The position numbers and the translations under genes are program-made. Source: Viola odorata (taxonomy: Eukaryota; Streptophyta; Magnoliopsida; Malpighiales; Violaceae). Taken from it: 64,000 bases of DNA. Where the stretch lies: positions 14,626,564 to 14,690,563 of the forward strand of contig OY829541.1 of the NCBI GenBank assembly GCA_963691705.1, given 5' to 3'. Position 1 is the first letter of the stretch, and the number at the start of each line of letters is the position of its first letter. The notes under the pieces were generated by a model. It was not told the origin of the DNA. It ran no database searches and saw only the letters and a list, made by a program, of their open reading frames with translations. Positions 25,304 through 62,174 of this stretch are shown here, one piece after another.

Positions 25304-26665
25304 TGATCGGTTGTTGAAGCCATCAAAAATAATAATAAAACCTGCAGTCAATTGCACAATAAATTGTGTATAATGGCAACAGGGTCGAACACAGGGATTA
25401 AGGGTTAACACTCGATTCAATTTAACAAACAAGGAAATCCACACAAGAAAGTAACAAAGGGGGGTTTTGAATGATTGTTTGATTGTTAATTATCTAAAAC
25501 AGTAATAAGGAAGATTAAAGAAAATAAGAAATCAATAGAGAGAAGGTTCATATTAAGAATCTGCGTCCGGTTGCAATTATGGTCAGTCGATCATCGGTGC
25601 AAGTATAGTCTACCCCTAGCTGATAGACGTGCTATGGGGACCAGGTACGCTTAGGCCCCCTGCTTGCCTTGGTAAGAGAAGCTACCCCAAGGTACGCTTA
25701 TGGGGTAACCTTGACAGTTCGCCGCCCTCCAAGGTACGCTTATGGAGACAATACTCGGCTGCCCATGAAGAGGAGGTAAGACACGTCTAGGGCGAGACAC
25801 TCGGTACGCTTGAGGCTCTACCCTAACAGCCTGTTTAACCCAGCTGGATGAGACCAGGAACCCGATTACTTCCAGACTGGTTGCTTACTTTACCCTGCAG
25901 CTTTGCGTTAGTTATAACCACAGAGATGACTATATTTTCCTAGTTTAATTGCTAGTTGATAAATCTTGTAATTAATTCTAGACAAATTGACAATATAATA
26001 TTAAACAAGATAGATACCGACTAGGGGTATGTTAAGTACAATTCGACCTCTCGGCTTCCCTAGGAACCTTTTACGATTCTTACCAAGAACAATGAATTTA
26101 GCCGCTCATGTTAACAGAAGCAAGAAATAAATAAATAAATTGCATAATTAAAAAGGGAGAAATGAAGAAGAAAGAAATCCTATTTATTACCGGCCGGAGC
26201 AAAGCTCCAGTTCATTGAAAGTAAAATAGATTGTGTCGGAGGTAGAAGTAGCGGGAATATGGCAGCGCCAAAGTCTAGAGGAGGAAGAGCGAGAGAAAAC
26301 TTAAATTACTAAAAGTATTTATAACTATTATAAAAATAAACTCCTAATCCGATTGGAATAATATTCCTCAATTGTCTTCTAGTGAGATCGGGATTCGTGG
26401 AGGAATTAAAGAGCAAATTCTGAAGTTTCCTTCTTTGCGATAGTTTCTTTTTCTCGCTAGGACTCTGTTGCCTTCTACGAACATACGACTGTAAGGCCTA
26501 GCTGCTCGATTCCTTCCAGAAAGTGATGAAAAATGCTTCTTTTGTATTTTCCTCCTAAATAGCCAAGATCTGTAAAAAGTGAAGAAACACAGCACCATTA
26601 GTAGCATTAAGATCTAAAAATGCATATAAATCGAGGTGAAATTATGCACATTAAACGTTCTATCA
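25304..26665 (-). repeat. 3' LTR of Athila element Ath-C
   Basis: A 1362-bp LTR with TGATCGG..TTCTATCA ends, in the same orientation as Ath-A. It contains the leader block in its best-preserved form, with the word GGTACGCTTA four times (25643, 25690, 25732 and near 25810). TATA on the minus strand lies near 26317-26327. The left flank AGATG (25299-25303) should be one target-duplication copy, but the other end of Ath-C is missing, so it cannot be checked. Confidence 0.9.
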
Positions 26666-26677
26666 AACATCCCCACA
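26666..26677 (-). other. Ath-C polypurine tract, LTR-proximal half
   Basis: AACATCCCCACA follows the LTR end. The tract resumes after Ath-B at 36716 (CTACCCCAATG..), because the CCACA at 26673-26677 is duplicated at 36711-36715. Confidence 0.88.
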
Positions 26678-28571
26678 TGATATGGTGTTTAAATGCATGT
26701 TTTTCTTATTGATTTTAGTCCCATTTTGAGCATGATACTTCTCATTTGCTCCTGTTTTCACCTTATTTGCAGGATTAGATTAAAAATGTCGAATTCGTGG
26801 AATTGTTAGCTTTTTGGAGGATTTTATGCACAATTCAGTGTCGAGACCTGGATGACAATTTTGCAGTCGAGACCTGGTCGAGACCTGGATGTCATTTTCA
26901 TTGTCGAGACCTCGACACCTTGAAGATTCCAGAAGCTTCCTTTCCTTTCCAGACCATGTCAGTTGACTCCGAGGAATATTCTCTGAAAGTGCACTCACTA
27001 TTTTCGTGCATTTCCCCCATGCTACCATCTGTCAATCGCACTTACTTCCTTTCCTCCATGTGGCCACGTCTCGATCGCACTCACCTCCTTTGGCTCATGC
27101 TGTCACATGGCTGTGCAGAGAATATTCTTATTCAGGGCATCTGCCCAGACTTTGTTCCCCACTCTTGTAATATTTTATCTGTCTGACCAGACCCTGACAA
27201 TATTTTCCCCCATGCTGTGTCAAGACCCAGACGAATATTCCTGACAATATTCCTGACCTGAGCATCAGTCCAGGCCCTGACAGCTCCACTCTTGTATTTG
27301 TTTAATTAGCTGAATTCCTTTTGTTCCCCATGTGTGTATGGGCGATTTTATTAGTTTATTCCCTTTTGTGGATGTTCCTCCCTATAAAAGAGAAGTCTTC
27401 ATCCATTGTGAAGGGGGGGTGACACAAACACCGAATTATCATCACCAAATTTCTCTTAGATAGTTTTAGTTTTATTCAGAGGTTTTGAAGGGCTTGTTCG
27501 TCCTTCTTGGTGTCGAGACCTCGACCAGTTTTTCTTCAATCCGGAGCTTTGAGCTCCGGTCGGTATTTAATACAATTTTCTCCTTCTTTATTTATTTTCC
27601 TTCTATGTTTATGTCAATTACATCTATTTATCATTTATCCATGAGTATGAGTAGCTAAATCCTTCTTCTTAGCAGGGGTCAGTAAGGGTTGCGTGGTCTA
27701 GACATGAGACCTGAACGTTCTTCATATGTTTTATGATTGTATTTGGTTGTTTGCCGAATTTATCTCATGATTTTAAGAGTTTTGTTAATTGATTAATCTC
27801 CTATTAACTTATCTTTTAAATCTACAGTCACTCCTTTGGGTAATAACTAACGTGAGGGTCAAAGGAGATAGTAGGCGACTAGATTGATGGTTGATCATAT
27901 TAATCCTCTCATCTAGGGCAAGCAACCGATCAGGTCTGACTTATCAGTGTCGAGACCTGGATGTGTCTTCTCTCAACTTCATGGGCTCTCTGAGTATTGT
28001 CATCATAAGCGTACCTTGGTGAACGGCAGAGTGTTAAGATCTCACCCATAAGCGTACCTTGGGTTTGGTTTCTATTAAGAAGAGAAGTAGGAGACCTAAG
28101 CATACCTGGTCTCTATGGCACGTCTATGCCTTGGAACAAAATATTTACGCGTCGATGACCGTCGAGATCTCGACGTAACCCTGTGTACCCTTGCTAGGAA
28201 CTTTTCTCCCATTTGATTTTCTCTCTCTCTCTAGTATTTTTATCATTGCTATTTATTGTGATTTGTACGATTTTCTCTGTGTGTTGGTTATTAAGTTGAT
28301 TGGTTTGATTTAATCGCTTTATTTACTTTTATTGTCTTTGTTAGCTCTCAAGATCATCTCGCTAGTAGATACATCTACTAGCGTAAAAACCCCCCTTTGT
28401 TACTAATTTCGTATGCTCTTGCTGCAGATTCTTCCTTGTCAGACGACGAGACCTCGACGTCAACGCTTTGTCCCTGTGGATCGACCCCTTGCTGCTATAC
28501 ACAAGCTTAATTGTGCATCTAGGCCTAGGGTTATAAATTGTATTTTTGAGCGTGCTTCAACGGCCGCATCA
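26678..28571 (+). repeat. Ath-B 5' LTR
   Basis: Begins TGATATGG and ends GGCCGCATCA. TATA box CCTATAAAAG at 27381-27390. The three leader hairpins are at 28000-28022, 28043-28064 and 28091-28113. A C6 run lies near 28391. The 14-nt palindrome-like word GTCGAGACCTCGAC occurs at 26903 and 27512, with shorter forms at about 26841, 26867, 26878, 27949 and 28446. Confidence 0.96.
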
Positions 28572-28576
28572 AATTT

Positions 28577-28594
28577 TGGCGCCGTTACTGGGGA
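28577..28594 (+). other. Primer-binding site of Ath-B
   Basis: TGGCGCCGTTACTGGGGA lies 5 bp after the LTR. It differs from the Ath-A site (TGGCGCCGTTGCCGGGGA) at two positions, both transitions, so tRNA-Asp remains the likely primer with imperfect pairing. Confidence 0.88.
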
Positions 28595-28626
28595 TAAACG
28601 GATACTGATTTCTTTGTTTTGTTTGT

Positions 28627-31600
28627 ATGACCAGGAGATCTGCTCCAGACCTTCTACCCCTTGATCTCGAGCTTACCAGGACAGAAAGAGGATATCGGCA
28701 GCAAGCTAGGACATCTTCTGCTTCTAACAGAGAAAACCTAGGTCGAGACCTCGACCAACAACCTAGCCCAGAAAACTTCCTTTACCTTATCAACTCTGAC
28801 CAACGAGACCAAGAATTTTTAAACCCTGAAATTCCAATCATGGCAGTACCACTACCACCAAATCAACCCATCCCTCCAATCCAAACAGTAGATGACTTAA
28901 ACACCGCACCCGAAACACCACATAGTTGTATTATATGGCCTGAGGTAGCCCACGACTGGATCCTCAAAACAGCTATCCTCCACCATCTACCCCTATTCCG
29001 AGGAACAACCAAAGAAAATGCTCACCGTCATTTACAACAACTCCATTCTATTTGCGAGGCCTTGAAGCCACAAGAAGTCAGCATCGAGCATGCCAAACTT
29101 CGCGCCTTCATGTGGACATTAAAAGATGATGCCTTCGACTGGTTCTATGACCTACCACGCAACTCCATCACGTCTTGGACTGATATGTTCAAAGCGTTCA
29201 TTGAGAAATATTTTCCAGCATCCATGGCAGCAGTCACAAGCAAACAGCTTGTGTCCATCCTCCAAAAAGCCGACGAAAATCTAGCCCAATACTATGCTAG
29301 ATTTAAAAGAATGCAAGCTCTATGTCCATCACACAACTTGACAGACCACGCCTTGATCCAATATTTTTGTGAAGGTCTGAGAGGACATGACAAGGCCTTG
29401 ATCAATGCCGCAAGTGGAGGGTCTTTATGTGCTTTAACACCAGCAACTGCCAAAGCCACCATAGAACTCATGGCCAAGAACATTGACTCCGAAGGAAGCC
29501 CTTTCTATCAAAATTCCCAAGTGGCCGAAATGGGAGCTCAATTGAAAGCTATCACAAACATGTTGCAAAATGTGACAATCACACCAAATATACCGACTGC
29601 CCAGGTCAAGATGTGTCAATTTTGTAGTCTCACGGACCACCCAACAGACGCATGTCCATTCATCCCAAATACCCCAGACGAGGTCCAGGTCAATGCAGCC
29701 GGTCAGTTTTATGGACCGAACTTCAACCAGGGCTGGAGACATCCGAACCCAGGATGGAATCAGAATGCACAGCAGTCGGGACCTAGTCAGATGAATCCCT
29801 ATGGAATGCATCCTCCTCCCTTCAACATGCAGAATTTCAAACCCAGACTTACTTTCAATCAAAATCATAATCAATATCAGCGTCAACCCGATCCCACATT
29901 TGTTGCTCCGCCCCAAGATGACCATGCGAGGTATCTAGAGCTCGAAAAACAAGTCAATCTTCTCATGGCAGAAATGAAAGAGTTAAAGAACAGAGGACGA
30001 CTTCCCTCTCAGTCAGAAGCGAATCCCAAAAGTGAAGCCTGCGCCATGAATCTTCGCAGTGGCTTATCTATACCTTCAGCAGATGGTCGAGACCTCGACC
30101 ATAAACCAGAAACAGAAATCATCGTCGAGCCCTCGACTGATATATCATCCAAGAAACCCTCGAAAGACAAGAAGAAAGAACAAGGGATCCCTGATTGCAT
30201 GGTAGACAGGATCCGCTCCCCCAGGGGGTCACCAAAGAATGACGAGAGACCACCCGAGTTCACCCAAGAATACATTCATAAGATCCTTGAACCTCCTTTC
30301 CCTCAAAGACTCATCAAGTCGAAAAAGGAGAAGGAAGATAAGGATATTTTTGAAATGTTCAGCAAAGTTATAGTCAACATCCCACTCCTCCAAGCTGTGA
30401 AGAACGTGCCTAGATATGCAAAATTCCTAAAGCAACTTTGCACAAACAAATGCAATCTCACCGGTGTTAACAAGATAAGTGTGGGGATGAATGTCACAGC
30501 CCACATCCAACAAAAGCTTCCCCCAAAGTGTAAAGATCAAGGAATGTTTGTCATTCCATGCAAAATTGGGGCGCACGATGTTGGGAAAGCCATGTGTGAT
30601 CTTGGAGCCGGCATTAATGTCATGCCCTCGACAGTCTACATTCGTCTAGGTCTCGGCCCCTTGAAACACACCAAACTTGCTATCCAACTAGCGGACAGAT
30701 CAGTCATCCATCCGGTGGGGGTTATTGAAGATGTCTTAGTCCAAGTGGGAGATTTCCTTTTCCCAGCTGATTTTTATGTTATCAAAATGGATGACGAGAC
30801 CTCGACCAAGCCATCTGATATTCTCCTTGGAAGACCATTCCTTGCGACCGCCAGGGCCAAGATAGATGTTCATGACGCCTCAATCACTCTGGAGTTTGAT
30901 GGCGAGACCATCCAGTTCAATATGCTAGAAGCCATGCGCTATCCTTACGAAATCTCTAGTGTTAATTTTATTGATATTGCTGATCCTCTCATTGATGAAA
31001 TTACTAATGTTAATTCTGATGATCCATTGCAGGTAGCCCTCGAAAGTCTCACATCAGAATCTTTGACTGTCTTGGCCTCGACCATCACAGTCCCTGAGAA
31101 ACTTCATTCGATCGTGGCAGCCTTGGAAGAAACTCCAGTATATGGTGGCGAGATCTCGCCACAGAATCCTCATGCAAATGCCCATGATCAATTGCTCTCA
31201 TCAAATGAGCAACCTCCAGCCCTCGACCTCAAAGAACTTCCCTCTCATCTCAAATACGCCTATCTTGGTGCCAATGACTCTCTTCCCGTGATTATATCCA
31301 GTAGACTTGATCAATCCGAAGAGCATGCCTTGATCACTCTCCTCAAAAAGTTTAAACAAGCCATCGGATGGACAATAGCCGACATCAAGGGCCTGTCACC
31401 ATCCCTTTGCACCCACCACATCCATCTAGAGGACGAGACCAAGACAGTCCGACAACCTCAACGACGTCTCAACCCACCCATGATGGAGGTTGTCAAGAAA
31501 GAAATCCTAAAGCTGTTGGATGCAGGAGTCATTTTTCCCATATCCGATAGTCCTTGGGTCAGTCCAATCCAAGTTGTTCCAAAGAAGACCGGAATCACTA

Positions 31601-32874
31601 TCACCACTGGTCTAGACGGGACCTCCATACCTACAAGAATCCAGAACGGGTGGAGGGTCTGTATAGACTATCGGCGTCTCAATGCAGCAACAAGAAAAGA
31701 TCATTTTCCTCTTCCCTTCATTGATCAAATGCTAGAACGTCTTGCTAGCAAGACTCATTATTGCTGTCTAGATGGCTACTCCGAATTTCATCAAATTCCA
31801 GTTGCTAAAGAAGACCAAGAAAATACCACTTTTACTTGTCCATTCGGGACCTTCGCTTACAGAAGAATGCCTTTCGGTCTTTGCAACGCTCCAGCAACAT
31901 TTCAGCGATGCATGGCCAGTATATTTTCCGAACTTGTGGAAAATGGGATCGAGGTCTTTATGGACGATTTCACTGTCCATGGCAACTCCTTTGAAGAATG
32001 CATCTCCAACCTCCAGAAATGCTTGCAACGATGTGTCGAGACCAACCTGGTGTTGAATTTTGAGAAATGTCACTTCATGGTCGATCGAGGTCTCGTTCTC
32101 GGACATATCGTCTCCAGTAAGGGTATTGAGGTCGACAAGGCCAAGATCGAAGTGATAGAGTCTTTGCCCTATCCAACTTGTGTACGTGATATCCGGTCAT
32201 TCTTGGGCTACGCTGGCTTCTATCGACGTTTTATCCAAGATTTTTCAAAAATCGCTCAACCGATGTGCCGCCTACTTCAGAAAGACGTGGATTTTATTTT
32301 TGATGAAAAATGCAAAATCGCTTTCGACGAGATCAAGATCAAGCTGATCTCCGCACCCATCATTCGAGCCCCCGACTGGTCTCTTCCCTTTGAGATCATG
32401 TGCGACGCCAGCAACCAGGCCTTGGGAGCTGTCTTGGGCCAAAAGAAAGGAAAAGAAACTTATGTGATTTATTATGCTTCCAAGCTCTTGGACCCTGCTC
32501 AGAAGAACTACACCACCACCGAAAAGGAGCTTCTAGCTGTCATCTATGCCCTCGACAAGTTCAGGCAGTATCTTCTTGGGACCCATGTCCTCGTCTACAC
32601 TGATCATTCCGCTCTTAGATGTCTGTTGACCAAGGCTGATGCCAAGCCTCGTCTTATCCGCTGGATTCTCTTACTACAAGAATTTGATATTGCAATTAAA
32701 GATAAGAAGGGATGTGAAAATCTAGTGGCAGACCATTTAAGTAGACTTCCTGCCCAAGTTGATGACTCCAGCATGCCCATTCGTGATTATTTTCCTGACG
32801 AGACCTCGACGTCAACGCTTTGTCCCTGTGGATCGACCCCTTGCTGCTATACACAAGCTTATTTGTGCATCTAG
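28627..32874 (+). CDS. Ath-B gag-protease-RT-RNase H polyprotein, integrase replaced by LTR-derived tail
   Basis: An open frame of 1415 codons from MTRRSAPDLLPLDLELTRTE. In order: gag domain (about residues 120-290), CCHC zinc knuckle CQFCSLTDHPTDAC (about 330-343), a Gln/Pro/Asn-rich linker, protease with CDLGAGINVMP (about 655-665), reverse transcriptase (about 960-1170; RVCIDYRRLNAATRKDHFPLP, catalytic FMDD near 1112) and RNase H (about 1250-1375; CDASNQALGAVLG, TEKELLAVIYALDKF). At about residue 1391 (FPDE) the frame leaves pol and reads an inserted LTR end for 25 codons to the stop. A full Athila pol would continue into integrase, as Ath-C does. The frame has no internal stop although the other Athila copies here have many. 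It could supply gag and reverse transcriptase but not integrate alone. Confidence 0.95.
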   Translation: MTRRSAPDLLPLDLELTRTERGYRQQARTSSASNRENLGRDLDQQPSPENFLYLINSDQRDQEFLNPEIPIMAVPLPPNQPIPPIQTVDDLNTAPETPHSCIIWPEVAHDWILKTAILHHLPLFRGTTKENAHRHLQQLHSICEALKPQEVSIEHAKLRAFMWTLKDDAFDWFYDLPRNSITSWTDMFKAFIEKYFPASMAAVTSKQLVSILQKADENLAQYYARFKRMQALCPSHNLTDHALIQYFCEGLRGHDKALINAASGGSLCALTPATAKATIELMAKNIDSEGSPFYQNSQVAEMGAQLKAITNMLQNVTITPNIPTAQVKMCQFCSLTDHPTDACPFIPNTPDEVQVNAAGQFYGPNFNQGWRHPNPGWNQNAQQSGPSQMNPYGMHPPPFNMQNFKPRLTFNQNHNQYQRQPDPTFVAPPQDDHARYLELEKQVNLLMAEMKELKNRGRLPSQSEANPKSEACAMNLRSGLSIPSADGRDLDHKPETEIIVEPSTDISSKKPSKDKKKEQGIPDCMVDRIRSPRGSPKNDERPPEFTQEYIHKILEPPFPQRLIKSKKEKEDKDIFEMFSKVIVNIPLLQAVKNVPRYAKFLKQLCTNKCNLTGVNKISVGMNVTAHIQQKLPPKCKDQGMFVIPCKIGAHDVGKAMCDLGAGINVMPSTVYIRLGLGPLKHTKLAIQLADRSVIHPVGVIEDVLVQVGDFLFPADFYVIKMDDETSTKPSDILLGRPFLATARAKIDVHDASITLEFDGETIQFNMLEAMRYPYEISSVNFIDIADPLIDEITNVNSDDPLQVALESLTSESLTVLASTITVPEKLHSIVAALEETPVYGGEISPQNPHANAHDQLLSSNEQPPALDLKELPSHLKYAYLGANDSLPVIISSRLDQSEEHALITLLKKFKQAIGWTIADIKGLSPSLCTHHIHLEDETKTVRQPQRRLNPPMMEVVKKEILKLLDAGVIFPISDSPWVSPIQVVPKKTGITITTGLDGTSIPTRIQNGWRVCIDYRRLNAATRKDHFPLPFIDQMLERLASKTHYCCLDGYSEFHQIPVAKEDQENTTFTCPFGTFAYRRMPFGLCNAPATFQRCMASIFSELVENGIEVFMDDFTVHGNSFEECISNLQKCLQRCVETNLVLNFEKCHFMVDRGLVLGHIVSSKGIEVDKAKIEVIESLPYPTCVRDIRSFLGYAGFYRRFIQDFSKIAQPMCRLLQKDVDFIFDEKCKIAFDEIKIKLISAPIIRAPDWSLPFEIMCDASNQALGAVLGQKKGKETYVIYYASKLLDPAQKNYTTTEKELLAVIYALDKFRQYLLGTHVLVYTDHSALRCLLTKADAKPRLIRWILLLQEFDIAIKDKKGCENLVADHLSRLPAQVDDSSMPIRDYFPDETSTSTLCPCGSTPCCYTQAYLCI

Positions 32875-32944
32875 GCCTAGGGTTATAAATTGTATTTTTG
32901 AGCGTGCTTCGACGGCCGCATCAAATTTTGGCGCCGCTGCCGAG
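32797..32944 (+). repeat. Internal copy of Athila U5 end plus PBS inside Ath-B
   Basis: From GACGAGACCTCGACGTC to GGCCGCATCA (32923) this matches the last about 125 bp of the Ath-B LTR (28447-28571 and 36586-36710). A PBS-like TGGCGCCGCTGCCGAG follows at 32929. It is closer to the 3' LTR (CTTCGACGG) than to the 5' LTR (CTTCAACGG). It starts exactly where pol would read TTTCCTGACGAG, so GACGAG is shared microhomology at the join. Confidence 0.93.
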
Positions 32945-33420
32945 TTGCTGAAATTTGGGCATGGTGCCGTGAAAGGTGAAGGGTGGTAAAGATGTGATGT
33001 GGTCGTTTTTATTTGTTGGATGATGGTCGGCGAAGAAAGAAGGTGTTTCAATGGAGGTCTGTTTTTCTTTTTATGTGTAAGATGTTTTGAATTGGAAAAG
33101 AAATATGGTGTGGCAATGGAGGTTGAGAGTAGTTTGCGGAAGAAGATGAACGTTGGAAGAGAAATCAAAGGAATTAGAAATGGGTCAAAGACATTAGAAA
33201 AGGATTTAGAAAAGAAAAGGACCACGACTCCGATTCCGACGCCGATTCCATTACCGGAGCTCTGGCCAAGCCTTCTGTTCCCGTTCAACCGCCGTTTGGC
33301 CCTCACCATCGCTCTGGCCAGTCCAGCACATTCCGGCTCCATCACCGCCCTTGTCCCTTCCCAAACTCTGTTTATTTTTTCTGCCTTCCCTTGAACTCTA
33401 ATTTTATTTTGTACTGTTTT
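32945..33420 (+). other. Unassigned segment of Ath-B replacing integrase and ORF3
   Basis: About 475 bp directly after the internal PBS. I cannot align it with Ath-A or Ath-C. It could be the tail of a deleted ORF3, leader sequence of another element, or a captured host fragment. Frames on both strands (plus 32999-33394, minus 33345-32812) are open but match nothing I know. Confidence 0.5.
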
Positions 33421-34079
33421 ATTCCCTTCTCACATTGAGGACAATGCGATGCCTAAGTGTGGGGAGGGCTTCTCTGTGTTTTATGTTTGTTTGTTTTTAT
33501 GCTTGCTTGTTTGCATAGTTTTTTTAGCTCTGCCTGCTTGCTTCTCTTTATGCATCTTGCCCTAGACACTACCTTTCTGCCTGCTAGTCCTTATAGCCAT
33601 GTCTAGGTCTCGACATCAGATATCAATTAAACTGTGAGCACTTGAGCCAAACACTGTTATTTTTTTATGTGCGAATGAATGTCCAACTAGACACAATTTA
33701 GATTTGCACTAAACCCCTGGGTGAAACACCATCAGACATAGGAAAGCACCAATATGACAAAAGTTTTTGCATCATTTTCTTCCCTTCTTTCACTCTTTCC
33801 CTTCTTTTAGCTTATCCAGCCCTCGACACCTTCCCTTCCTTATTCTTTCTATCTAGACCCTTTGAGCTAATTATTTTTGATCTTTCTCTTTGGCAGGCGA
33901 AGCTGTGGTTGTTGGGAGCGATGTCTAGAGGCTAGACAGAAAGTAAAGGCAAAGTGTGGGGATGACCAAGATAAAGAATCAAGAGCTGAAACGAATCTGC
34001 ATCCTGCCCTAGATAAGAAAATCAAAAATTTCCAAAGGTTCGTGCTTACTCATGCAAAATATATGTAGTTTCTTCCTCC

Positions 34080-34113
<34 letters not shown>

Positions 34114-34819
34114 AAAAATTAAAAAAAAAATAATAATAATAAGAAGGAAAAACAGAAACAAAAATTAAGCAACAAAGTTTATTATGAGTAAGCACAGAAA
34201 GAAACATGAGTCCCGACCAGCCTTCTCAGCGAGATCTCATCCCCACAAGAAGAACGAAATTTCTGTCTAGCTCTCGTGACGAGCCCTCGACGCTACTGCC
34301 TAGCCACCTCTCTTCTTTCTGCCAAGGAACTCTGCCAGGTTTGGTCTTGAATCTTCATCTTTCTCCTCTTCCATTCTTCCCTTCTTACTTATTTCACTTG
34401 TCTTTGCATTCCACCTTCCATAACCTACCACTTTTTTCTGTTTATTCTTTCTTGATGCAAAACTATCTTTTCGATTGGATGATTGCCTATGCTTGTGTTT
34501 ATTTACTCGGGTTGACATGCAAACTATATTTTGTGTTGTGTTGTGTACATTGTTGAGCGTTAAACACTCACCCTTTGTCTGCGAGTGGGAGCGAAAATAG
34601 AGGTCTTGTGAGGATTTCTCTTGTCGAGATCTCGATCTGGTAAAGTCCAACCTTAAGGGTCGTTATCCTTCTGGTTCGATGCAGGTACTAACCTAGGCAG
34701 ATTGGTAAGTGTTACGGGTAAGTTTGCTGTTGAGATTTCTATCCTTTGTGTGTTTTGTTTGAGTTTGTGTTCAGCTTTTTGAATGCTCGAGGACGAGCAT
34801 TGGGCAGTGTGGGGATATT
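33421..34819 (+). other. Ath-B 3' noncoding region and polypurine tracts
   Basis: Contains the CATTG/CAATG mini-hairpin at 33433-33446, polypurine-like cores at 33455-33465 (AAGTGTGGGGA), 33951-33962 and the LTR-adjacent 34805-34815, and an A-rich tract at 34083-34132. The block from about 34290 to 34820 aligns with the Ath-E interior (60225-60780). No gene seen. Confidence 0.8.
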
Positions 34820-36710
34820 TGATATGGTGTTTAAATGCATGTTTTTCTTATTGATTTTAGTCCCATTTTGAGCATGATACTTCTCATTTGCTCCTGTTTT
34901 CACCTTATTTGCAGGATTAGATTAAAAATGTCGAATTCGTGGAATTGTTAGCTTTTTGGAGGATTTTATGCACAATTCAGTGTCGAGACCTGGATGACAA
35001 TTTTGCAGTCGAGACCTGGTCGAGACCTGGATGTCATTTTCATTGTCGAGACCTCGACACCTTGAAGATTCCAGAAGCTTCCTTTCCTTTCCAGACCATG
35101 TCAGTTGACTCCGAGGAATATTCTCTGAAAGTGCACTCACTATTTCCGTGCATTTCCCCCATGCTACCATCTGTCAATCGCACTTACTTCCTTTCCTCCA
35201 TGTGGCCACGTCTCGATCGCACTCACCTCCTTTGGCTCATGCTGTCACATGGCTGTGCAGAGAATATTCTTATTCAGGGCATCTGCCCAGACTTTGTTCC
35301 CCACTCTTGTAATATTTTATCTGTCTGACCAGACCCTGACAATATTTTCCCCCATGCTGTGTCAAGACCCAGACGAATATTCCTGACAATATTCCTGACC
35401 TGAGCATCAGTCCAGGCCCTGACAGCTCCACTCTTGTATTTGTTTAATTAGCTGAATTCCTTTTGTTCCCCATGTGTGTATGGGCGATTTTATTAGTTTA
35501 TTCCCTTTTGTGGATGTTCCTCCCTATAAAAGAGAAGTCTTCATCCATTGTGAAGGGGGGGTGACACAAACACCGAATTATCATCACCAAATTTCTCTTA
35601 GATAGTTTTAGTTTTATTCCGAGGTTTTGAAGGGCTTGTTCGTCCTTCTTGGTGTCGAGACCTCGACCAGTTTTTCTTCAATCCGGAGCTTTGAGCTCCG
35701 GCCGGTATTTAATACAATTTTCTCATTTATTTATTTTCCTTCTATGTTTATGTCAATTACATCTATTTATCATTTATCCATGAGTATGAGTAGCTAAATC
35801 CTTCTTCTTAGCAGGGGTCAGTAAGGGTTGCGAGGTCTAGACATGAGACCTGAACGTTCTTCATATGTTTTATGATTGTATTTGGTTGTTTGCCGAATTT
35901 ATCTCATGATTTTAAGAGTTTTGTTAATTGATTGATCTCCTATTAACTTATCTTTTAAATCTACAGTCACTCCTTTGGGTAATAACTAACGTGAGGGTCA
36001 AAGGAGATAGTAGGCGACTAGATTGATGGTTGATCATATTAATCCTCTCATCTAGGGCAAGCAACCGATCAGGTCTGACTTATCAGTGTCGAGACCTGGA
36101 TGTGTCTTCTCTCAACTTCATGGGCTCTCTGAGTATTGTCATCATAAGCGTACCTTGGTGAATGGCAGAGTGTCAAGATCTCACCCATAAGCGTACCTTG
36201 GGTTTGGTTTCTATTAAGAAGAGAAGTAGGAGACCTAAGCATACCTGGTCTCTATGGCACGTCTATGCCTTGGAACAAAATATTTACGCGTCGATGACCG
36301 TCGAGATCTCGACGTAACCCTGTGTACCCTTGCTAGGAACTTTTCTCCCATTTGATTTTCTCTCTCTCTCTAGTATTTTTATCATTGCTATTTATTGTGA
36401 TTTGTACGATTTTCTCTGTGTGTTGGTTATTAAGTTGATTGGTTTGATTTAATCGCTTTATTTACTTTTATTGTCTTTGTTAGCTCTCAAGATCATCTCG
36501 CTAGTAGATACATCTACTAGCGTAAAAACCCCCCTTTGTTACTAATTTCGTATGCTCTTGCTGCAGATTCTTCCTTGTCAGACGACGAGACCTCGACGTC
36601 AACGCTTTGTCCCTGTGGATCGACCCCTTGCTGCTATACACAAGCTTAATTGTGCATCTAGGCCTAGGGTTATAAATTGTATTTTTGAGCGTGCTTCGAC
36701 GGCCGCATCA
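34820..36710 (+). repeat. Ath-B 3' LTR
   Basis: A 1891-bp near-copy of 26678-28571. TATA at 35523-35532. Differences include CTTTATTTATT versus ATTTATTTATT near 35725 and CTTCAACGG versus CTTCGACGG near the end. Confidence 0.96.
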
Positions 36711-36715
36711 CCACA

Positions 36716-40739: not shown

Positions 40740-41213
40740 GGAGAATGCACAGAGTCGGTGTGGGGAAGAGAAATTTGAAAAGAAAAAGGGAGAAGATGGA
40801 AGGTAAAGTGGAAAGTGACAAAAAGGGAAGAAAACGTTCTCCCTTTATGGCTGCCAGCTGCTAGCCATTGCCCACGTGCAGATGTGGTGGCTTGTGATTG
40901 GGGCCCATCAAATCCCAACTGCAAAATCCCAACTGTCACGCTCCCAAACCTAATCAGGAAATTCAAAGTTTGAAAATGGGAATTAATTGGGTTAAAGAAG
41001 GGGAATAAGAAGAAAAAAATGAGGAATAAAAGGGGGGTAATTAAATAAAATAAAAAAAGAGGAGAAGAAGGGAAAAGATCCAGGGGTGGAGAAAATCAAG
41101 GAATTAAATAAAAAGAAAAATAATTAAAGAAAGTAAGGAAAGGGATAGGAACGTGGGTTGCCTCCCACAAAGCGTCGTAGTTAACGTCTCGGGCTAGACG
41201 TTGGTGACGAAGA
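40740..41213 (-). other. Ath-C spacer between pol and ORF3
   Basis: Purine-rich on the plus strand, no recognisable product. Corresponds to 4902-5420 in Ath-A. Confidence 0.6.
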
Positions 41214-42507: not shown

Positions 42508-42512
42508 CAAGG
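42508..42512. other. Target-site duplication of Tat-D, left copy
   Basis: CAAGG, identical to 56668-56672. Confidence 0.92.
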
Positions 42513-44983: not shown

Positions 44984-44986
44984 GTT

Positions 44987-45004
44987 TGGCGAATTCACTG
45001 GGGA
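44987..45004 (+). other. Primer-binding site of Tat-D
   Basis: TGGCGAATTCACTGGGGA starts three bases after the LTR. TGGCG-type sites occur in Tat/Ogre elements, reported as tRNA-Arg primed. I could not verify the tRNA here. Confidence 0.65.
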
Positions 45005-48300: not shown

Positions 48301-48646
48301 CTCCCGGCATGATCACCTTTCCCTTTCAAAAAAAATAAAATAAATGGGTCCATTAACCGATCGCTAAAGAAAAAATTCCAAACAAAATAAAACCTAGCCC
48401 CTCGCACACATTTGTTCGGAAAAGTTCCACCCGAGGACATGTTGTGTAGTCACGATGGCTCCCTTTACGTCCTCACTAAGAAAGCCAGCCCAAGATGCAC
48501 CTGTTTCTCGCTTCCCCTAAAAGTATCAAGTGAAAGAGTGGCTGGAGGATTGATAAAAGCAGTGTGGAGGCCTCGAGGTTGCACATAATACGCACATTAT
48601 CACTTATACTTATTTCTCTTCACTTTTTTTTCTTTTCAGGATAACG
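48301..48646 (+). other. Tat-D sequence between the repeat array and gag
   Basis: Unique sequence of about 350 bp. A pyrimidine-rich tract ending TTTTCAG at 48634-48639 lies just before gag and would serve as a splice acceptor if a leader intron exists, as proposed for some Ogre-type elements. That is inference. Confidence 0.4.
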
Positions 48647-50276: not shown

Positions 50277-51978
50277 ATAATCCTCTTTGGCGGCCCCTGC
50301 TGCATGCTATCAACAGAAGTCTGTTTCCTTTACTTTGTTTTCTATTTTTACTATTGTACGATCCTTATGTAAGTCCTTTTAGGGGGAAACTTTTGACATC
50401 TTTAACAGCTTTTTGGTCCTTGTGATTATAAAATAAAACTTCGCTTGATGAAAATCCTACATTTTTGAAACATTCCTTAGATCAAGCATATTCATCATTT
50501 TTATTAATTCACGTTTAACTTGCGTGTTCATTAGAAGTTGTATAAGCATACGTGATCTTATCTGTTAGCTCTTATATCCATGACATGTTTAGATGTAAGC
50601 AGTCACAAAACATATCCCTGTGAGTACTTAGGGCCTTCACGCCTTATTTCTTTCATGAGTGTAGATGCTAAACTAGGTGCTAGTTAGATTTGCATAATAT
50701 CTAGGGTACATGAACTGTCAGACATGGGATAGCGGTAAGATGACATTGGACTTTGCTTTTGCTCTTCTTCCACATTTTCATTTTTAACCTTTTTACCCTC
50801 AAAACACATACTTGTACACCATGTACAACTCTATCAAACACCCAAAAACCTTTTAACCAAGTGAGTTAGTGCTCGACTGGGACCGCTAAATTGGAGTTAC
50901 ACATCAAGCAAGGGAATGACAAGGAAGCCCTTGGAGGATCGCTGACAAAACAACGTCAGAAGAAGGGCAAAACAAACCAAGACTTGGAAGCTTCTGCCAA
51001 AGACAGAGAGGATGACAAACCAAATAAAAATTGTACTTGCTTTGCTTGCTCAATCAAAAAAAAATCATCATCAATAAAAAAAATAAACAAAAAAACAAAT
51101 CAAAAATCAATGAAAAAGTGTTCAAAAAAATATGTTCAAAGAACACAATCAACAAAGGCAACAGCAAAAGCAAGTACAAAACAATAAAAACTGCCAAATA
51201 TCAATGGCAAAATGATCTAAAAAAGACAAGAGATCGTTCCCCGTGAATGTTGAAGAACTTGGGCAAAGAGCCCTCAAAACAATCAAGAAGTAACATCTCC
51301 AGCAAAGATTCAAGGATTTGTGCACTTTCCTCTCACCAGGGTCAAATGGTCGAGCATCGTTCACCATAATTTGTCTTCATCACAATCAGTCGTCGAGCAC
51401 GAACCAAAAAAACAAAAAAAACAACAAACACAACACCTCTCCTTTCTTCTACAAACTCCTCCTTTCTTATTCCCTCGCAAAGTCCTTTTGATTATTGGTA
51501 GACTCATGCATGTGCATCTTCATTTGAAGTCTATTCACTCGGATTGACATTGCAAATTTAATTTTTGTGCTATGTTTATTGCATTTTTAGGAGTGTAAAT
51601 ACATAACCTAGTTTTCTGAGCGTGAGCGCAAACACTAATATCTAGTGAGGATTGCTTACAGCTGCATGTCGTGGGAAAGTCTTGTTCTTGAGGTCGTTAT
51701 TTCCTGAACAAGACGTAGACATTATCTAGACTTGAATCAACCATGTTCATATAACGAAAATTGGACAAACATTTTAGCCAAAAAATGCTTGAATTTATTT
51801 TCTTAAACAAAGAAATCATTTTCAAACAAAAAAACTTAGGGGCAAGTCATGGGTTAAATGTAGGAATATGCGATATTTCTCACATTATCAATTGCTCTCT
51901 CTTTTTCTATCTGTTGCTGCTTCGCGTTTGCTTCCTTCCTATTTGCAGGACACAGATATTCTTCGTTGGAATCAAATT
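50277..51978 (+). other. Tat-D region without pol
   Basis: About 1.7 kb where pol would be expected. I find no catalytic motif on either strand. A Lys/Thr/Ser-rich ORF (50891-51187) comes from A-rich sequence and is not convincing. Confidence 0.7.
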
Positions 51979-52260
51979 GGGTCTTTGATGCAACATCGTT
52001 GTAATGCCCTAACCTTGGATTTTCATTAAAATCAATCAACATCGAATGGAGAACGTTACCACTCCTCAACCATGGGTCTTCGATGCAACATCGTTGTAAT
52101 GCCCTCACCTTGGATTTTCATTAAAATCCGATCAACATCAAATGGAGAACGTTACCACTCCTCAACCATGGGTCTTCGATCACAACATCGTTGTAATGCC
52201 CTTGTCATGGATTTTCATCAAAATCCAATCAAACATCCGACCAGATCAACTTTCCTCATT
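51979..52260 (+). repeat. Three tandem copies of a 95-96-bp unit in Tat-D
   Basis: GGGTCTT(C/T)GATGCAACATCG starts copies at 51979, 52074 and 52170. Each continues with TTGGATTTTCATTAAAATC and ACGTTACCACTCCTCAACC. Confidence 0.92.
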
Positions 52261-52264
52261 ATCA

Positions 52265-53180
52265 GAGAAGAGAAGATCACCATCGTCCTCAATATCAGAG
52301 ACAACCGACTTCAATATCAGAGATTATCAACGTCCTCACTATCAGAGACAACCGATTTCACTATCGGAGATTATCAACGTCCTCAATATCAGAGACAACC
52401 GATTTCACTATCAGAGATCATCCACGTCCTCAATATCAGAGACAACCGATTTCACTATCAGAGATCATCCACGTCCTCAATATCAGAGACAACCGACCTC
52501 AATATCAAAGATTATCAACGTCCTCACTATCAGAGACAACCGATTTCACTATCAGAGATCATCCACGCCCTCAATATCAGAGACAACCGATTTCACTATC
52601 AGAGATCATCCACGTCCTCAATATCAGAGACAACCGACCTCAATATCAAAGATTATCAACGTCCTCACTATCAGAGACAACCGATTTCACTATCAGAGAT
52701 CATCCACGTCCTCAATATCAGAGACAACCGATTTCACTATCAGAGATCATCCACGTCCTCAATATTAGAGACAACCGACCACAATATCAGTGATCATCAA
52801 CATCCTCAATATAATAGATCATATCAAAGACAACCGATTTCACTATCAGAGACAACCGATTTCACTATTAGAGATCATCCACGTCCTCAATATCAGAGAC
52901 AACCGATTTCACTATCAGAGATCATCCACGTCCTCAATATCAGAGACAACCGACCTCAATATCAGAGATCATTAACATCCTCAATATCAGAGATCATATC
53001 AAAGACAACCGATTTCACTATCAGAGATCATCAACGTCTTCATTATCAGAGACAACTGACCTCAATATCAGAGATCATCAATGTCCTCACTATCAGAGAC
53101 AACCGATTTCACTATCGGAGATTATCAACGTCCTCACTATCAGAGACAACCGATTTCACTATCAGAGATCATCAAACGAG
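52265..53180 (+). repeat. 47-bp satellite-like tandem array in Tat-D
   Basis: About 19 copies of a 47-bp unit built from two half-units that both contain TATCAGAGA: TATCAGAGACAACCGATTTC and TATCAGAGATCATCCACGTC. Consecutive units start at, for example, 52394 and 52441. Occasional half-unit steps and small insertions occur (about 52800, 52990). Because the unit contains almost no stop codons, ORFs up to 406 codons cross it. These are not genes. Confidence 0.95.
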
Positions 53181-53909
53181 ACAACCCTCCCCATCTCCCT
53201 CAGAAACATTTCGCCAAAGAAACATTTCCCTCAAAGGTACGTTACTATCCACCAACATCAAACCAAAGGTACGTTCTAATTCTCATTTATAATTCTGCAA
53301 TTTACGCTTTTCCTCACTATCAGAGTGGTTGTCATTTGCAATTCTGCAATTTATGTTTTTCCTCACTATCAGAGTGGTTCTCATTTACAATTCTGCAATT
53401 TACGTTTTTCCTCACTATCAGAGTGGTTGTCATTTACGTTTCTGCATTTCTGCATGCTCCCTCAATATCTGAGTAGTCTGCATTTATTTTCCCGCAATTG
53501 GCATTGTTTCTGAAGTTCCCAAAGTAATTCTCCATTTCTGCATAATTACTACTCCTCCTTGAGCGACTATATCTTTCAAATCATGTCTTTAAATTCACGT
53601 CTAATTACTACTCCTCCTTGAGCGACTATATCTTTCAATTCACGTCTAACCATTACTCCTCCTTGAGCGACTATGTCTTTCAATTCCTATCTTTCAATTC
53701 ATGTCTATCTAAATGCTCCTCCTCGAGCGACTATGTCTTTACATAATTCTACATTTCTGCATAGTTATTACTTGAACGATTACCTTTCAATTCATGCATA
53801 AACCCACACCTCAACCAGTTGTGATGTAATTCAAAACATGGTAAAAAACTAGGGCAACCGTCTTTACTGCTAATCAAAAATCTCAGTTACACTTTATTTT
53901 TGATCAGAC
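53181..53909 (+). repeat. Further short repeats in the Tat-D 3' region
   Basis: Three copies of a roughly 60-bp unit (ATTCTGCAATTTACG..TTTTCCTCACTATCAGAGTGG) at about 53290-53450, reusing the TATCAGAG core. Then three to four copies of ACTCCTCCTTGAGCGACTAT at about 53548-53740. The last 70 bp matches the residual interior of Tat-G. Confidence 0.85.
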
Positions 53910-53910
53910 A

Positions 53911-53926
53911 GTAAAGAGGGGGCAAC
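53911..53926 (+). other. Polypurine tract of Tat-D
   Basis: GTAAAGAGGGGGCAAC lies directly before the 3' LTR start. Tat-G has AAAAAAGAGGGGGCAAC in the same place. Confidence 0.88.
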
Positions 53927-56667
53927 TGTTGCTACCTGAATTTTGACTTGCGTCGCAAGCTTTTTCGCACTTTTAATTCATTTATCACGTTTAATAGCTT
54001 GTCTAGGTCAAATCTTTGTCGATCCTTGGTCCTAGGCTAGTTTGTTTAATATTCCGTGTCAATTCGAGTCTTTTTAGTTTTTTGTAGTTTCGACTGTCTT
54101 AACGCAAACTTCTTTCGATCCCGAAGAAGTTTCCCAGGGCCGAGGGTCGAATGCACTATTTCTTTGTTTGATAATTACGTGCTAATTTTCTCTTTCACGC
54201 CACCGCGTTCAGTTTCATTAAATTTTTGTCGTAAGGACATTTATTTTGTGCGCAAACATTTTGACACTTCCGAAAGAGAAAATAAATACGTTAAATCAAC
54301 TTTCGCATTTTTTCACTGTATATTAGTTTTCTTGCCTTATTTTTCTACACATAGTTGTACCCTCAGCTCGGATTTATTTTCACTTTCGTACGATTTGGCT
54401 CGTACCAAAATATCCCGTTCGAACCAATTAAATAAATATCTCCCAAACTTGCTCATCACCCAACCACATACCCAAACTTTCTCATCACCCATCCACATAC
54501 CCAAACTTGCTCATCACCCTACCACACAAACCCCAAACTTGGCCTCTACTCCAGCCATTCTTATCCATCCACCTCCTCCTCCGATTTTCAACCACACAAA
54601 GCACAACCAACTCAAAATTCCAACTCTATAAATAGAGAGCTTCAAGCAACAAATCAAGGGGACCAAAAATCTTCTCTAAAAATCCCCTTTCTTGCACTAC
54701 CTTCTTGGTCAAATTGCTCTCCCGGAACAAGTAAGTTCTTTCTCTCTCAACTCTCTTTAATTTTTATTTTCCATTGTAATGCATGAATAAACTATTAAAA
54801 CTTGTCTAATATGCTTAGTTTTCATTCCATGTATGCTCTCCTTGCCTCAATTTGATTGCATGATGCACTAGCTAATTAATAGAAACTTATGCATGTTAAA
54901 TAGCTTAATCTTTCCATGTAAAATCACCACTGTTTTTGTATTGTTTTACTTGCTGTTTTGGGTGCTATATTTTACTGTTTTGATACTATAAATATTGGGA
55001 CCATTTGGGTAAAAATGGTGGAGGTTTAGAGTTTGAGTAATTGGCCATGGTGGCCGGCGTTGTGGTGAAGAAGAAAGGAAGAGGTAAGGTGATGGTGGGA
55101 AAGAAAAAGAAAGAAGAAAGGTGGTGGGCTTAGGCCCATCTTTGTTTTAAATTAAAATTTGTGCCTGGCACATTTTTTAATGTCCAAATTGCCAAGGTGG
55201 GGCCCGACCCAATTGTTTTCGTCAATTTTCGTATGAAATATTCGTATGCTTGTGTGTTTAATTAAATTGCTTGCATGTTATAAATGAGTTGTTAATTTAT
55301 TTATGCCATGTTTATTTAATTGAATGCTTACATGCTTTAATTAATTTGTTATGCCATGTTTATTTAATTAAATGCATGTTGTAATTAATTTATTTATGCC
55401 TTGTTTATTTAATTAAATGCATGTTGTAGTTAATTTGTTTATGCCATGTTTATTTAATTAAATGCATGTTGTAGTTAATTTGTTTATGCCATGTTTATTT
55501 AATTAAATGCATGTTGTAATTAATTTGTTTATGCCATGTTTATTTAATTAAATGCATTTTGTAATTAATTTGTTTATGCCATGTTTATGTAATTAAATGC
55601 ATGTTGTAATTAATTTGCTGATGCCATGTTTTATTTAATTAAATGCTTGCATGCTTTAATTAATTTATTTATGCCATGTTTATTTAATTAATTGCCTATT
55701 TGTCATAAATTAAATAAATGTTTTGCATGCGCTTTTCTTATTTATTATTTTCGAAACCATCGCTAATGCTTTAAATTTACAAGGTAGATCAAGATCACGC
55801 AACGCAAGTAAGCCCCTTCTAAGTCTCTTTTATTTATCCAATGTTTTCCGCAAATATTACTTATAGACATGATATTTAAAAATGCTAAAAAACTCATAAA
55901 TTGTGTGCATGATAAAATCAACCCACATGCTTACGTGTTTAAATCACTCGCTTTTATACCATGAAATTAATTGCTTGCATTGATATATGAGCATGATGGC
56001 TTCGATCCCACACGGTTATTTGCATTTCATTAAATTTGTATTGTGCTAGTATTTATCCATGATAGGATCACGTAGTAATTAGGTTAATCATGCATGACCC
56101 GATGATGAAAAAGGAGGAACGTCCACTCTAGCATAACGAACAAACGGTAACCCCATCCTTCGTGTCCCGATCGGGAATAACATGCCCCTACGAAAATGCT
56201 AAGATGTAACGTCACCTTTGAGGGCCAAATCACGTCAAAAATGTTTAAATAATCGGAAAGTGTCCCAATTCGGTAAGCGGACTCTGTTGACATGATCCAA
56301 TCATTGGCCTATGTAAATGATTGGGAAGTGACTTGAGTTCGTGGGAAGAATTGGTTGACATGCTTCGATCATTAAACAAATCTTTGTATATCAAAATTGT
56401 ATTCAAACACCTTTTTACCGGTAACCTTTTTAAGGATGTGACTTGGGTGCCTAACACCTTCCCAAGTCCATAATAAGACCTCGAACCTTTGTTCAATGGT
56501 TTAGACCAATTGTGCCTTAGTTTTTTTATTTTATGCCATGACATTAGGTTCCCTAAACCTTAGAAAATAGGGTGGCAACTTCATTGCATTATGCGAAGCA
56601 TCCATTTATGCTTAGCATCCGTCCCGAACCTTAAACTCATTTTTCAACGAAAAAAGGGGGTGCGACA
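53927..56667 (+). repeat. Tat-D 3' LTR
   Basis: 2741 bp, TGTTGCTACC..TGCGACA. It is about 270 bp longer than the 5' LTR because of extra copies of a 45-bp minisatellite (55300-55690; unit ATGCCATGTTTATTTAATTA..), two extra units of a 29-bp repeat (about 54460-54520) and smaller indels. TATA at 54626-54635. Hairpin at 56297-56324. Confidence 0.95.
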
Positions 56668-56672
56668 CAAGG
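56668..56672. other. Target-site duplication of Tat-D, right copy
   Basis: CAAGG, identical to 42508-42512. Confidence 0.92.
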
Positions 56673-60220: not shown

Positions 60221-60780
60221 GCTGCTGCCAGCTGACGAGTGTTGCTTCACCGACTTCTCCTTCTTTCCAGCTAAGGAATCTTTTCTGAACTCTGAGTTGG
60301 TCCTCTCCACTCTTCTTTCTTATCTCTGTTTTCTCCTTCTTATTCTCCATCTTTCCTTTACAATTCAAAATGCACGCCATCTACCCTTTTTTTATGCAAA
60401 ATCTTTTAGATTGCTAGATTGCCCATGCATGTGTACTACTTACTCAGATTGACGTTGCGAACGTGACAATGTGTTGTGTTATTTGCATTCTTTTGAGCGA
60501 TTAAACACCTATTCATGTTTGTAAGTGTGAGCGCAAACACTTTATCTTGTGAGGATTGCTTGTGACTAGGTCTGGTGTGAGAAAGTCTTACCTCTATGGT
60601 CGTTATCCTTTTGGTTTGATACAGACGCATGTCTAGGTAGGAGTTGTGTACTGTAGGGTGTACTGTGATGGTTGATGGATTTGTTCGTGTGTGGAGGTTG
60701 ATTGTTTGTGTTCTGACTAGGGGAGGTTTTCATTTTGGGTTAAATGCTCGAGGACGAACATCAGGCGGTGTAGGGATATT
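60221..60780 (+). other. Ath-E interior, 3' end only
   Basis: Aligns with 34290-34819 of Ath-B (GAGCG(A)TTAAACAC.., GTGAGGATT.., GGTCGTTATCCTT.., ATGCTCGAGGACGA). It ends with GGCGGTGTAGGGATATT, a polypurine tract with one interruption. Everything upstream of Ath-E is missing. Confidence 0.85.
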
Positions 60781-62174
60781 TGATATAATGTATTTTGTGC
60801 ATATTTTCCCTTCCTTTCCTAGCCCTTTTTAGATCTTGATGCTACTGATTTGCCCTTATTTCTTTACTTTTAGCAGATTTGGGCTTTAGGAGAGGAAATT
60901 CCAGAAAGATACATTATCTGCTCGGTTTTGACGGATGTTGAGCGTCTAGGCCTAGATGCAGATCGTCTAGGCCTAGCTGTCGAGCGCTGCAGGTGCTTAC
61001 AACTCTGACACGCAAAAGGAAATTCCCGAAGAAGATCTCCAGCAGATCTAGAATCCCATTCCCTGTGGTCTTCTATTCCAGCAAGGATTTTACTTCCATC
61101 TTTTGTAATTCTATTAGGAGTAGAATTCCATTTTTTTTTCCACTTTTAAGACTTCCTATTTTGTAGCCTATATATGGTTTCTCGGTTTAGGGTTAAGGAC
61201 GTTTTTTTAGTATCATTCTTCCTGGATTTTTATCACCGCTGCTGCCGCCGCTGTCTTGTAATAAACCGGAGTTTCGCCGGCCGATAACATTCAATATTAT
61301 TTAGTATCTTCTTCTCTTTTTTTATGCATTCTTCCATTATTTATTTTATTTGTTTTATTGTTATGAGCGACTAAATCCCTCCTTCTTAGCAGAGGTAATT
61401 CAATGGTTACTTAGGATAGTTATGAGGTTATTTCGTGCTTAATAAATTCCTTGTTCGTATTTGCTCACTTGTCAAGATCTTACCAATTTGCCTAGGGTTA
61501 ATTAGAAGCCTGATCAACTCTTAAATGAATCTAGGTGATTGAAGTCATCTTTGTAGTAATAACTAACGTGAGGCTACAGAGTAAAGTAGACAACTAGTTC
61601 AGAGTCATCACGTCGACCTGGTCCAATCTAACTAGGGCAAGTGGTCCACTAGGGCAGTGCCTCGAACGTACTGAGTATCTCGCCCTAGGTGTGTCATTTC
61701 TCTGCTTAATGGGCCTCTGAGTATTGCTCCCATAAATGTACCTTGGGAGACGGCAAAGTGTCAAGGTTACCTTATAAACGTAACATGAGGTAGCTTCTCG
61801 TACGAAGAAGAGCAGGGGGCCTAAACGTACCTGGCCTCTCTAGCACACCTATGACTAGGAGTGGAATATATCTAGACCAGTGATTGACTAGGCCTAGATA
61901 CAATCGGAGAATGGACCTCTTCTAGGATCCCTTCCTATCTGATTTTATATCATTATTTATCTATTTTATTTAGTTTAATATTATTTTAATCAACAACTCT
62001 CAAACCCCCCCCCCCCCTATTTGCTACTGTTTTGGTTTGTTTGTCCTTGTCACACACAAAAGTCAGTGTCAACCCTTAGTCCTTGTGTTCGACCCTGTTA
62101 CCACTATGCACAATTCTTTGTACACTAGATAGTAGATTTTCTTTATTATTTTTGACGGCTTCGACAACTGATCA
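60781..62174 (+). repeat. Ath-E 3' LTR
   Basis: 1394 bp, TGATATAATG..ACAACTGATCA. TATA CTATATATGG near 61168-61177. The three leader hairpins lie at 61727-61749, 61768-61792 and 61818-61836, with loop word TAAACGTACCT or close variants. A C run lies at about 62005-62019. Its repeated word is (G)TCTAGGCCTAG (60946, 60970), where Ath-B uses GTCGAGACCTCGAC. Confidence 0.9.

Follow-up and report, generated by a model that had tools for sequence, protein, structure and literature searches.

What is a group of hairpins with one repeated loop word doing inside the long terminal repeats (LTRs) of plant retrotransposons, and does it exist as an RNA structure at all? The question is raised by a stretch of Viola odorata DNA (assembly GCA_963691705.1, contig OY829541.1, positions 14,626,564-14,690,563, forward strand). 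In these 64,000 nt, called the window below, the first-pass annotation had pointed to three consecutive hairpins in the LTR leader of elements that it named Athila, with stems and loops that change between element families. We have found that the fold is real: it is a conserved RNA secondary structure, a multibranch domain of ∼190 nt.

When the window was searched with a covariance model and with a sequence profile, each trained on window copies, eight copies of the block and no others were found (families A, B, C, E and H and a decayed copy, D; Table 1). Copies B1 and B2 belong to the two LTRs of one element (LTR identity 99.4%). Folding of the window copies with RNAalifold places helices P1, P2 and P3 around hairpins SL1, SL2 and SL3. 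The outer helix P1 closes the multibranch fold and holds P2 and, beside it, SL3; P2 holds SL2 and P3, whose tip is SL1. The arms of P1 read AGACGUG/CACGUCU in C, AGGUGUG/CACACCU in E and AGAUCUG/CAGAUCU in A, while those of P2 read CUUACCU/AGGUAAG in A, CUUCUCU/AGAGAAG in B and CUUUCCU/AGGAAAG in D (in C and in E, P2 has a single mismatch). Two more hairpin units, SLb and P0/SL0, lie upstream of the core. The SLb loop is near-invariant, GTWATAMCTRACG, while its stems vary (UUCCAGGG/CCCUGGAA in A, CCUUUG/CAAAGG in B and UUGUAG/CUACAG in E); SLb is broken in H. In C and E the SL0 hairpin with its loop word lies within P0, and in E it reads CTCGAACGTACTGAG, a further copy of the loop word upstream. 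A single domain has three or four copies of one loop word, carried on stems of differing sequence.

The hairpin arms and loops reported by the first-pass annotation for B, C, E, A and H were all recovered at their positions, and the replacement of the pair GTCACC/GGTGAC in A by GCCACC/GGTGGC in H is real. Other details had to be revised. The three hairpins are present but are not free-standing, as they are enclosed by P1, P2 and P3. For the B stem CACCCA/TGGGTT the arms were located, but the outermost bases, C28043 and T28065, do not pair. The third hairpin of C, described as weaker, cannot be called weak: its arms GGGGGCC and GGTCCCC pair across 25652-25660 and 25636-25643. The upstream copies of the loop word in C and E had been missed. 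Folds of single sequences, made with no alignment, draw SL1, SL2 and SL3 in B and E; in C, SL2 and SL3 are drawn and SL1 is drawn otherwise.

Across the eight copies of the window, pairing holds in 94.7% of cells, and both sides are changed at 16 of the 45 pairs; with slid partners the corresponding figures were 37 to 50% of cells and 0 to 3 pairs. Stems change letters while pairing is kept, just as had been proposed, and every core helix includes pairs changed on both sides. Four of the count measures for the window copies were reached by none of 500 shuffles, and column shuffles, when refolded, never came as low as the observed energy (−36.1 kcal/mol versus −12.5 ± 3.2; 0/500). Copy D was kept in the core statistics and in the tree-based tests described below in spite of its partly broken P1 and P3, and was left out of the alignment of SLb and P0 (A4). 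In the latter (seven copies), 92.4% of cells pair, compared with 28 to 55% in slid controls, and the 19 cells changed on both sides were matched in 0/500 shuffles.

To obtain more diverged copies we searched the same genome (699,142,476 bases) with blocks C, B, E and A as DNA queries, which gave 3742, 1349, 2162 and 2305 first-look candidates, respectively; the best 40 for each query were scored. Loci were taken from the C, B and E searches alone, 30 from each, along with 10 short regions. After 11 partial matches had been dropped at an earlier collection step and three partial blocks later, 109 full blocks remained, including those of the window. Four of them (L036, L066, L067 and L106) are the window copies C, B1, B2 and E fetched again, so the 109 blocks stand for 105 places, and some are the two LTRs of one element. 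Sixteen representatives with <90% mutual identity were selected, and H, which is closer to A, was added to make 17 rows; seven of the 17 come from the E clade. In a second, realigned set of 16 rows the single copy of family J was omitted, because MAFFT had misaligned its SL1.

The null model for these sets was evolution without structure: the observed substitutions were re-dealt along the inferred tree. The consensus energy for the window copies was −42.1 kcal/mol versus −10.9 ± 3.7 (0/300 as low), for the 17 rows −33.9 versus −5.6 ± 2.9 (0/2151) and for the 16 rows, folded with RNAalifold, −39.1 versus −6.8 ± 2.9 (0/1833). The covariation between families thus exceeds the phylogenetic background, with diverged rows that all belong to one genome. 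With 16 rows, and with E counted within the structure set, P1, P2, SL1 and SL2 each contribute one pair at E < 0.05 (4 of the 45), and one SL3 pair has E = 0.055. With 17 rows, the P2 column pair 25-141 is alone among 18528 column pairs in passing the threshold of E = 1.

Helix P3 was also sampled with a genome-wide pattern. The strict pattern CTTCATGGGCN{4,8}TGAGTN{30,50}TGTCAAG has 716 + 701 = 1417 matches genome-wide, and its reversed control has 0 + 0. Of the 100 matches listed, all on contig C1, 85 came with letters and gave 37 distinct strings. From these strings, 31 distinct arm pairs are 96.8% paired; 2000 arm shuffles averaged 79.8% and peaked at 85.5%. Such shuffling ignores relatedness, and the pattern itself fixes some arm letters. 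One P3 column pair alone appears as GC, TA, CG, GT and TG, plus one AC, among the matches listed.

The signal has a strand. Against the tree nulls, z-scores for the sense strand were −8.5, −9.9 and −11.2 (8, 17 and 16 rows), versus −1.2, −2.05 and −1.06 for the antisense strand. Since the antisense values are near background, it is LTR-sense RNA that carries the signal. G-U pairs that persist throughout the eight window copies (columns 40-91 and 95-127) likewise fit LTR-sense RNA and not a DNA inverted repeat. In a sliding scan of the five-family leader, sense segments stood out at B1 27779-27897 (1/100 shuffles as low), 27995-28108 (0), 27898-27994 (4) and 28053-28167 (2); 27838-27937 (70/100) and 27938-28052 (20) were unremarkable. 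Extreme z-scores at 27553-27662 (−27) and 27720-27837 (−13.7) carry little meaning, because their null has almost no spread. Antisense values were −2.5 at 27995-28108 and −3.5 at 27503-27610.

The word TAARYGTACCT occurs nine times in the window versus 0.06 expected, and all nine occurrences are inside the blocks. That the repeated word changes together in several loops is mostly borne out: the variable loop base of SL1, SL2 and SL3 is G,G,G in 58 of the 109 blocks and A,A,A in 17; but this is not always so, as seven blocks have A,A,G (the remaining 27 are mixed or not classed). These counts are not independent events, because related copies share ancestry. By family, the loops are of the 11-nt kind, UAARYGUACCU, in B, C and E; A, H and two further families, H2 and K, keep the scaffold but have GNRA-like loops in some hairpins; J is mixed. 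SL2 and SL3 of A and H carry TGTGGAAACG or a near copy of it. In minimum-energy folds GAAA tetraloops are drawn in SL2 and SL3 of A1 and in SL2 of A2 and H, with no tetraloop in SL3 of A2 and H. By eye, GAAA or GGAA tetraloops can be traced in SL3 of the single copies of H2 (L061), K (L130) and J (L050).

What elements carry the block? B has an open gag-pol frame with matches to Retrotrans_gag, RVT_1 and RNase H, and is placed in Ty3/gypsy by its gag and reverse transcriptase (RT) and by a primer binding site (PBS)-like word right after the LTR. Homologues numbered 7944, with plant names, where named, among the 120 matches listed. Marks of the Athila lineage are the ATHILA ORF1 model, the RT phylogeny and the tRNA type; no ATHILA-named Pfam match was present among the seven pieces scanned, and the name Athila is that of the first-pass annotation. 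The block had been placed downstream of the TATA word and upstream of the PBS. Both sides hold in B, where it has a TATA word upstream (27383) and the PBS-like word downstream (28577; LTR end, 28571). In A2, H, C and E the TATA side alone was recovered; the search that found the PBS word in B did not find one there. On its position, the block is a conserved RNA domain of what we predict to be the long 5′ leader of Ty3/gypsy elements.

A repeated loop that mostly changes in concert, carried by unlike stems in a fold preserved in the RNA strand, is most readily understood as an array of sites for one trans-acting binder. A protein reader is favoured, since the loops have no more complements in cis than expected by chance (12 loop words tested on five regions of elements or LTRs, with 20 shuffles apiece) and show no consistent palindrome; the sole cis exception, a 13-nt run for the SL1 loop of A versus a shuffle maximum of 12, is taken as chance. 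The element's own Gag nucleocapsid would need the fewest assumptions as binder, given that families within one genome differ in loop identity, and this economy makes a packaging-type signal the leading reading and control of export or translation its main rival. We put at roughly one in two the probability that the domain is a Gag-binding, packaging-type (Psi-like) signal. The scaffold would present the loops as an array, the loops would be recognition sites of a trans-acting protein, most likely Gag nucleocapsid, and the domain would single out full-length RNA to be packaged into virus-like particles; on this view, specificity would not be the same in families some of whose hairpins carry another kind of loop. 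A bolder and much more tentative version is a lock and key: one scaffold with three or four like loops, whose kind might be swapped hairpin by hairpin in step with the Gag of the element; families that live in one genome would thereby each package their own RNA, and non-autonomous elements could travel by copying the loops.

Several observations weigh against the case for a conserved packaging signal or temper it. Statistics for individual pairs are modest: with all 18528 column pairs counted, 1 of 40 structural pairs in the 17 rows is at E ∼0.05. Further pair types in the core show no excess (71/500 shuffles reach the observed number), nor do the SLb/P0 pairs changed on both sides (8 of 15, reached by 69/500). 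Every alignment row comes from one genome, and the loops do not always change at the same time. Once inserted, copies show no sign of selection, because variation within families is about equal in paired and unpaired columns: minor-letter rates, paired/unpaired, are 0.055/0.065 in C (42 copies), 0.057/0.049 in E (28) and 0.029/0.030 in B (24 copies, 20 distinct). Such a lack of within-family conservation excess is as expected of decaying insertions and is no help to the case. Changed cells that still pair number 145/240 in C, 47/64 in B and 107/179 in E, with 32, 5 and 6 compensated doubles, respectively, as bare counts with no expectation attached. Finally, the classical retroviral Psi sits after the PBS, and a block inside the LTR itself differs in this respect.

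The same domain could instead act through a host protein in nuclear export of full-length RNA, or as a switch between its translation and replication; we regard this as a possible but distinctly less probable function. A structured leader in which one loop word recurs would be in keeping with repeated sites for any protein. Also, a three-codon upstream frame of the type ATGAGYRRCTAA lies upstream of 76 of the 104 blocks examined (7/7 in the window, 23/42 in C, 22/24 in B, 21/28 in E and 3/3 in K, H2 and J, the four window copies being counted again among C, B and E), compared with 0.009 per shuffled stretch, and its presence makes translational control in the leader plausible. On the other hand, a host factor gives no obvious reason for family-specific loop words in one genome.

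Dimerisation, in which the loops of two RNAs would kiss through a GUAC core, appears improbable. GUAC is self-complementary and is present in most loops of B, C and E, but it is only four bases long and is not conserved: it is lost in SL3 of B (AUAC), in SL2 of E and in several loops of D, and it is absent from the loops of A and H and from the single copies of H2 and K, where the scaffold persists. Loop dimerisation is disfavoured because the palindrome is both short and not conserved.

It is very unlikely that the repeat acts in DNA, with the loop word as a transcription-factor site (for instance, one with a GTAC core) and the arms incidental; the word does recur at similar places in each class I LTR of the window, but such a site predicts neither covarying arms nor G-U pairs nor strand bias, and GTAC is missing from loops of A and H and from the single H2 and K copies. 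Least credible of all is an artefact of alignment or shared ancestry, a single hairpin duplicated in tandem with apparent covariation arising from few related sequences: the rows are only 16 or 17, seven of them from the E clade and all from one genome, but the tree-based nulls, the different stems under the same loops and the alignment-free folds of B, E and C all speak against it.

Table 1. Positions of the block, its helices and hairpins and associated features in the window
Feature	Position	Strand	Remarks
Core domain, family A copy 1 (A1)	133-326	-	model hit 187 bits; GAAA in SL2 and SL3 loops
Core domain, family A copy 2 (A2)	11173-11366	-	model hit 184 bits
Core domain, family H	13104-13298	+	model hit 176 bits
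Core domain, copy D, decayed	18928-19109	-	151 bits; several non-standard pairs; P1 and P3 partly broken
Core domain, family C	25615-25800	-	model hit 189 bits
Core domain, family B copy 1 (B1)	27947-28135	+	model hit 200 bits; P1-P2-P3 with SL1, SL2, SL3
Core domain, family B copy 2 (B2)	36086-36274	+	model hit 204 bits
Core domain, family E	61675-61860	+	model hit 186 bits
P1 in B1	5′ arm 27958-27966, 3′ arm 28118-28126	+	double changes at P1 pairs
P2 in B1, CTTCTCT/AGAGAAG	5′ arm 27967-27973, 3′ arm 28081-28087	+	column pair 25-141
P3 in B1	5′ arm 27984-27992, 3′ arm 28027-28035	+	31 distinct P3 arm pairs tested
SL1 in B1	28000-28022	+	loop TAAGCGTACCT
SL2 with lower stem in B1	28037-28071	+	loop TAAGCGTACCT
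SL3 in B1	28090-28114	+	loop TAAGCATACCT
SLb hairpin in B1	27833-27866	+	conserved loop GTAATAACTAACGTGAG
P0 helix in B1, TCAGGTC/GACCTGG	27930-27960	+	around a short hairpin; last bases abut P1
SL0 in C	25800-25815	-	fourth loop-word copy, CTC AAGCGTACC GAG
P0 in C	25787-25793 with 25820-25826	-	around SL0
SLb in C	25893-25925	-	
SLb in E	61549-61581	+	
P0 helix in E, CTAGGGC/GCCCTAG	61649-61688	+	around SL0 with loop GAACGTACT
Three-codon frame	11680-11669 (A2), 12814-12825 (H), 26109-26098 (C), 27647-27658 (B1), 61363-61374 (E)		
Small hairpin at LTR end	25355-25368 (C, minus), 28500-28515 (B), 13626-13639 (H)		

Other features of these elements were recorded as well. The three-codon frame reads ATG AGY RRC TAA (ATG CGT AGT TGA in H) and starts 194-264 nt after the TATA word in five families; it may be a micro-upstream open reading frame or only conserved sequence. 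A hairpin such as CCGGAGCTTTGAGCTCCGG can be seen by eye soon after the TATA word at 27541-27559 (B), 26194-26210 (C, minus) and 61266-61280 (E), adjoining AATAAA in C (26188) and E (61260); presumably it is comparable to the retroviral poly(A) hairpin. Near the LTR end, a conserved word, TTCGACCC or GATCGACCC, is followed by a small hairpin such as CACAATTTATTGTG. The B element (26840-36596) has dispersed words, GTCGAGACC (15 on the plus strand of the window) and GAGACCTCGA (10), in its LTRs, leader and body, and the palindrome CTAGGCCTAG occurs six times in the window, at B (28519, 32871 and 36658) and E (60946, 60967 and 61888).

The window also holds an LTR element that lacks the block (42515-56667, LTR pair ∼42515-44983 and 53929-56667), apparently nested in the pol of another element and containing 47-nt tandem repeats (52180-53290) and ∼181-nt repeats (46165-48357). 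Host-type genes at 19931-20734 and 23424-24524 encode an extracellular part resembling that of wall-associated kinases, and a protein kinase domain. Outside Viola, an RT 40% identical to that of B was seen at 1208-2047 of a 5-kb contig (L035) in the assembly of Bradyrhizobium sp. MOS002, where the block was not sought; the contig is probably a eukaryotic contaminant. In viral contigs an exact 16-mer scan gave 34 loci, none of which matched the block profile, and RT scans found no relative.

Does the domain belong to a known class of RNA? No Rfam family matched the window at its gathering score, and a laxer scan of 27600-28600 gave, on the opposite strand, a single match at chance level (E = 4.1). 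A microRNA precursor was set aside by judgement, the stems having only ∼5-11 bp. A hammerhead retrozyme would have a ribozyme motif in the LTR; Rfam gave no match to one in the window. Among the matches listed in searches of the literature on RNA structure in Athila, plant and Ty3 retrotransposons, from which subscription papers mostly fall outside, no title or abstract concerns this domain. In the available parts of related papers, the hairpins of PMC10418216 are synthetic RNA interference constructs, PMC3276544 deals with a small RNA from Athila6 and mentions a possible fold-back of that transcript, and PMC12218528, a survey of 130 plant genomes, reports only modest covariation for its structured RNAs. 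RNA structures in retroelement leaders are known; a description of the repeated-loop multibranch domain was not found in the literature searched. A leader domain of this sort, with covariation and a recurring loop word, offers a defined, mutable target in plant elements, and it can serve as a structural marker for finding relatives, including non-autonomous elements.

Among known systems, hairpins with GNRA tetraloops are alike in part of the families only; the other loops are 11 nt long and are not GNRA. BARE, of the Ty1/copia superfamily, is likewise a plant LTR element, and the available part of PMC3735527 mentions conserved dimerisation and packaging signals; the superfamily is another one, and no corresponding fold was found in that part. 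The 5′ cis-acting packaging regions of Ty1 and Ty3 are likewise determinants near the RNA ends of LTR retrotransposons; as far as PMC4974528 was available, it calls their packaging sequences and structures not clearly defined, and no repeated-loop multibranch domain was found described there. Retroviral Psi, as in human immunodeficiency virus 1 and mouse mammary tumour virus (MMTV), is like the block in being a multi-hairpin RNA domain, situated in the leader of genomic RNA as is predicted for the block, and the available part of PMC8096270 presents the exposed loops of the MMTV leader as proposed Gag sites. Unlike Psi, the block, for which we infer a comparable role of Gag, lies inside the LTR, upstream of the PBS, and repeats its loop word three to four times.

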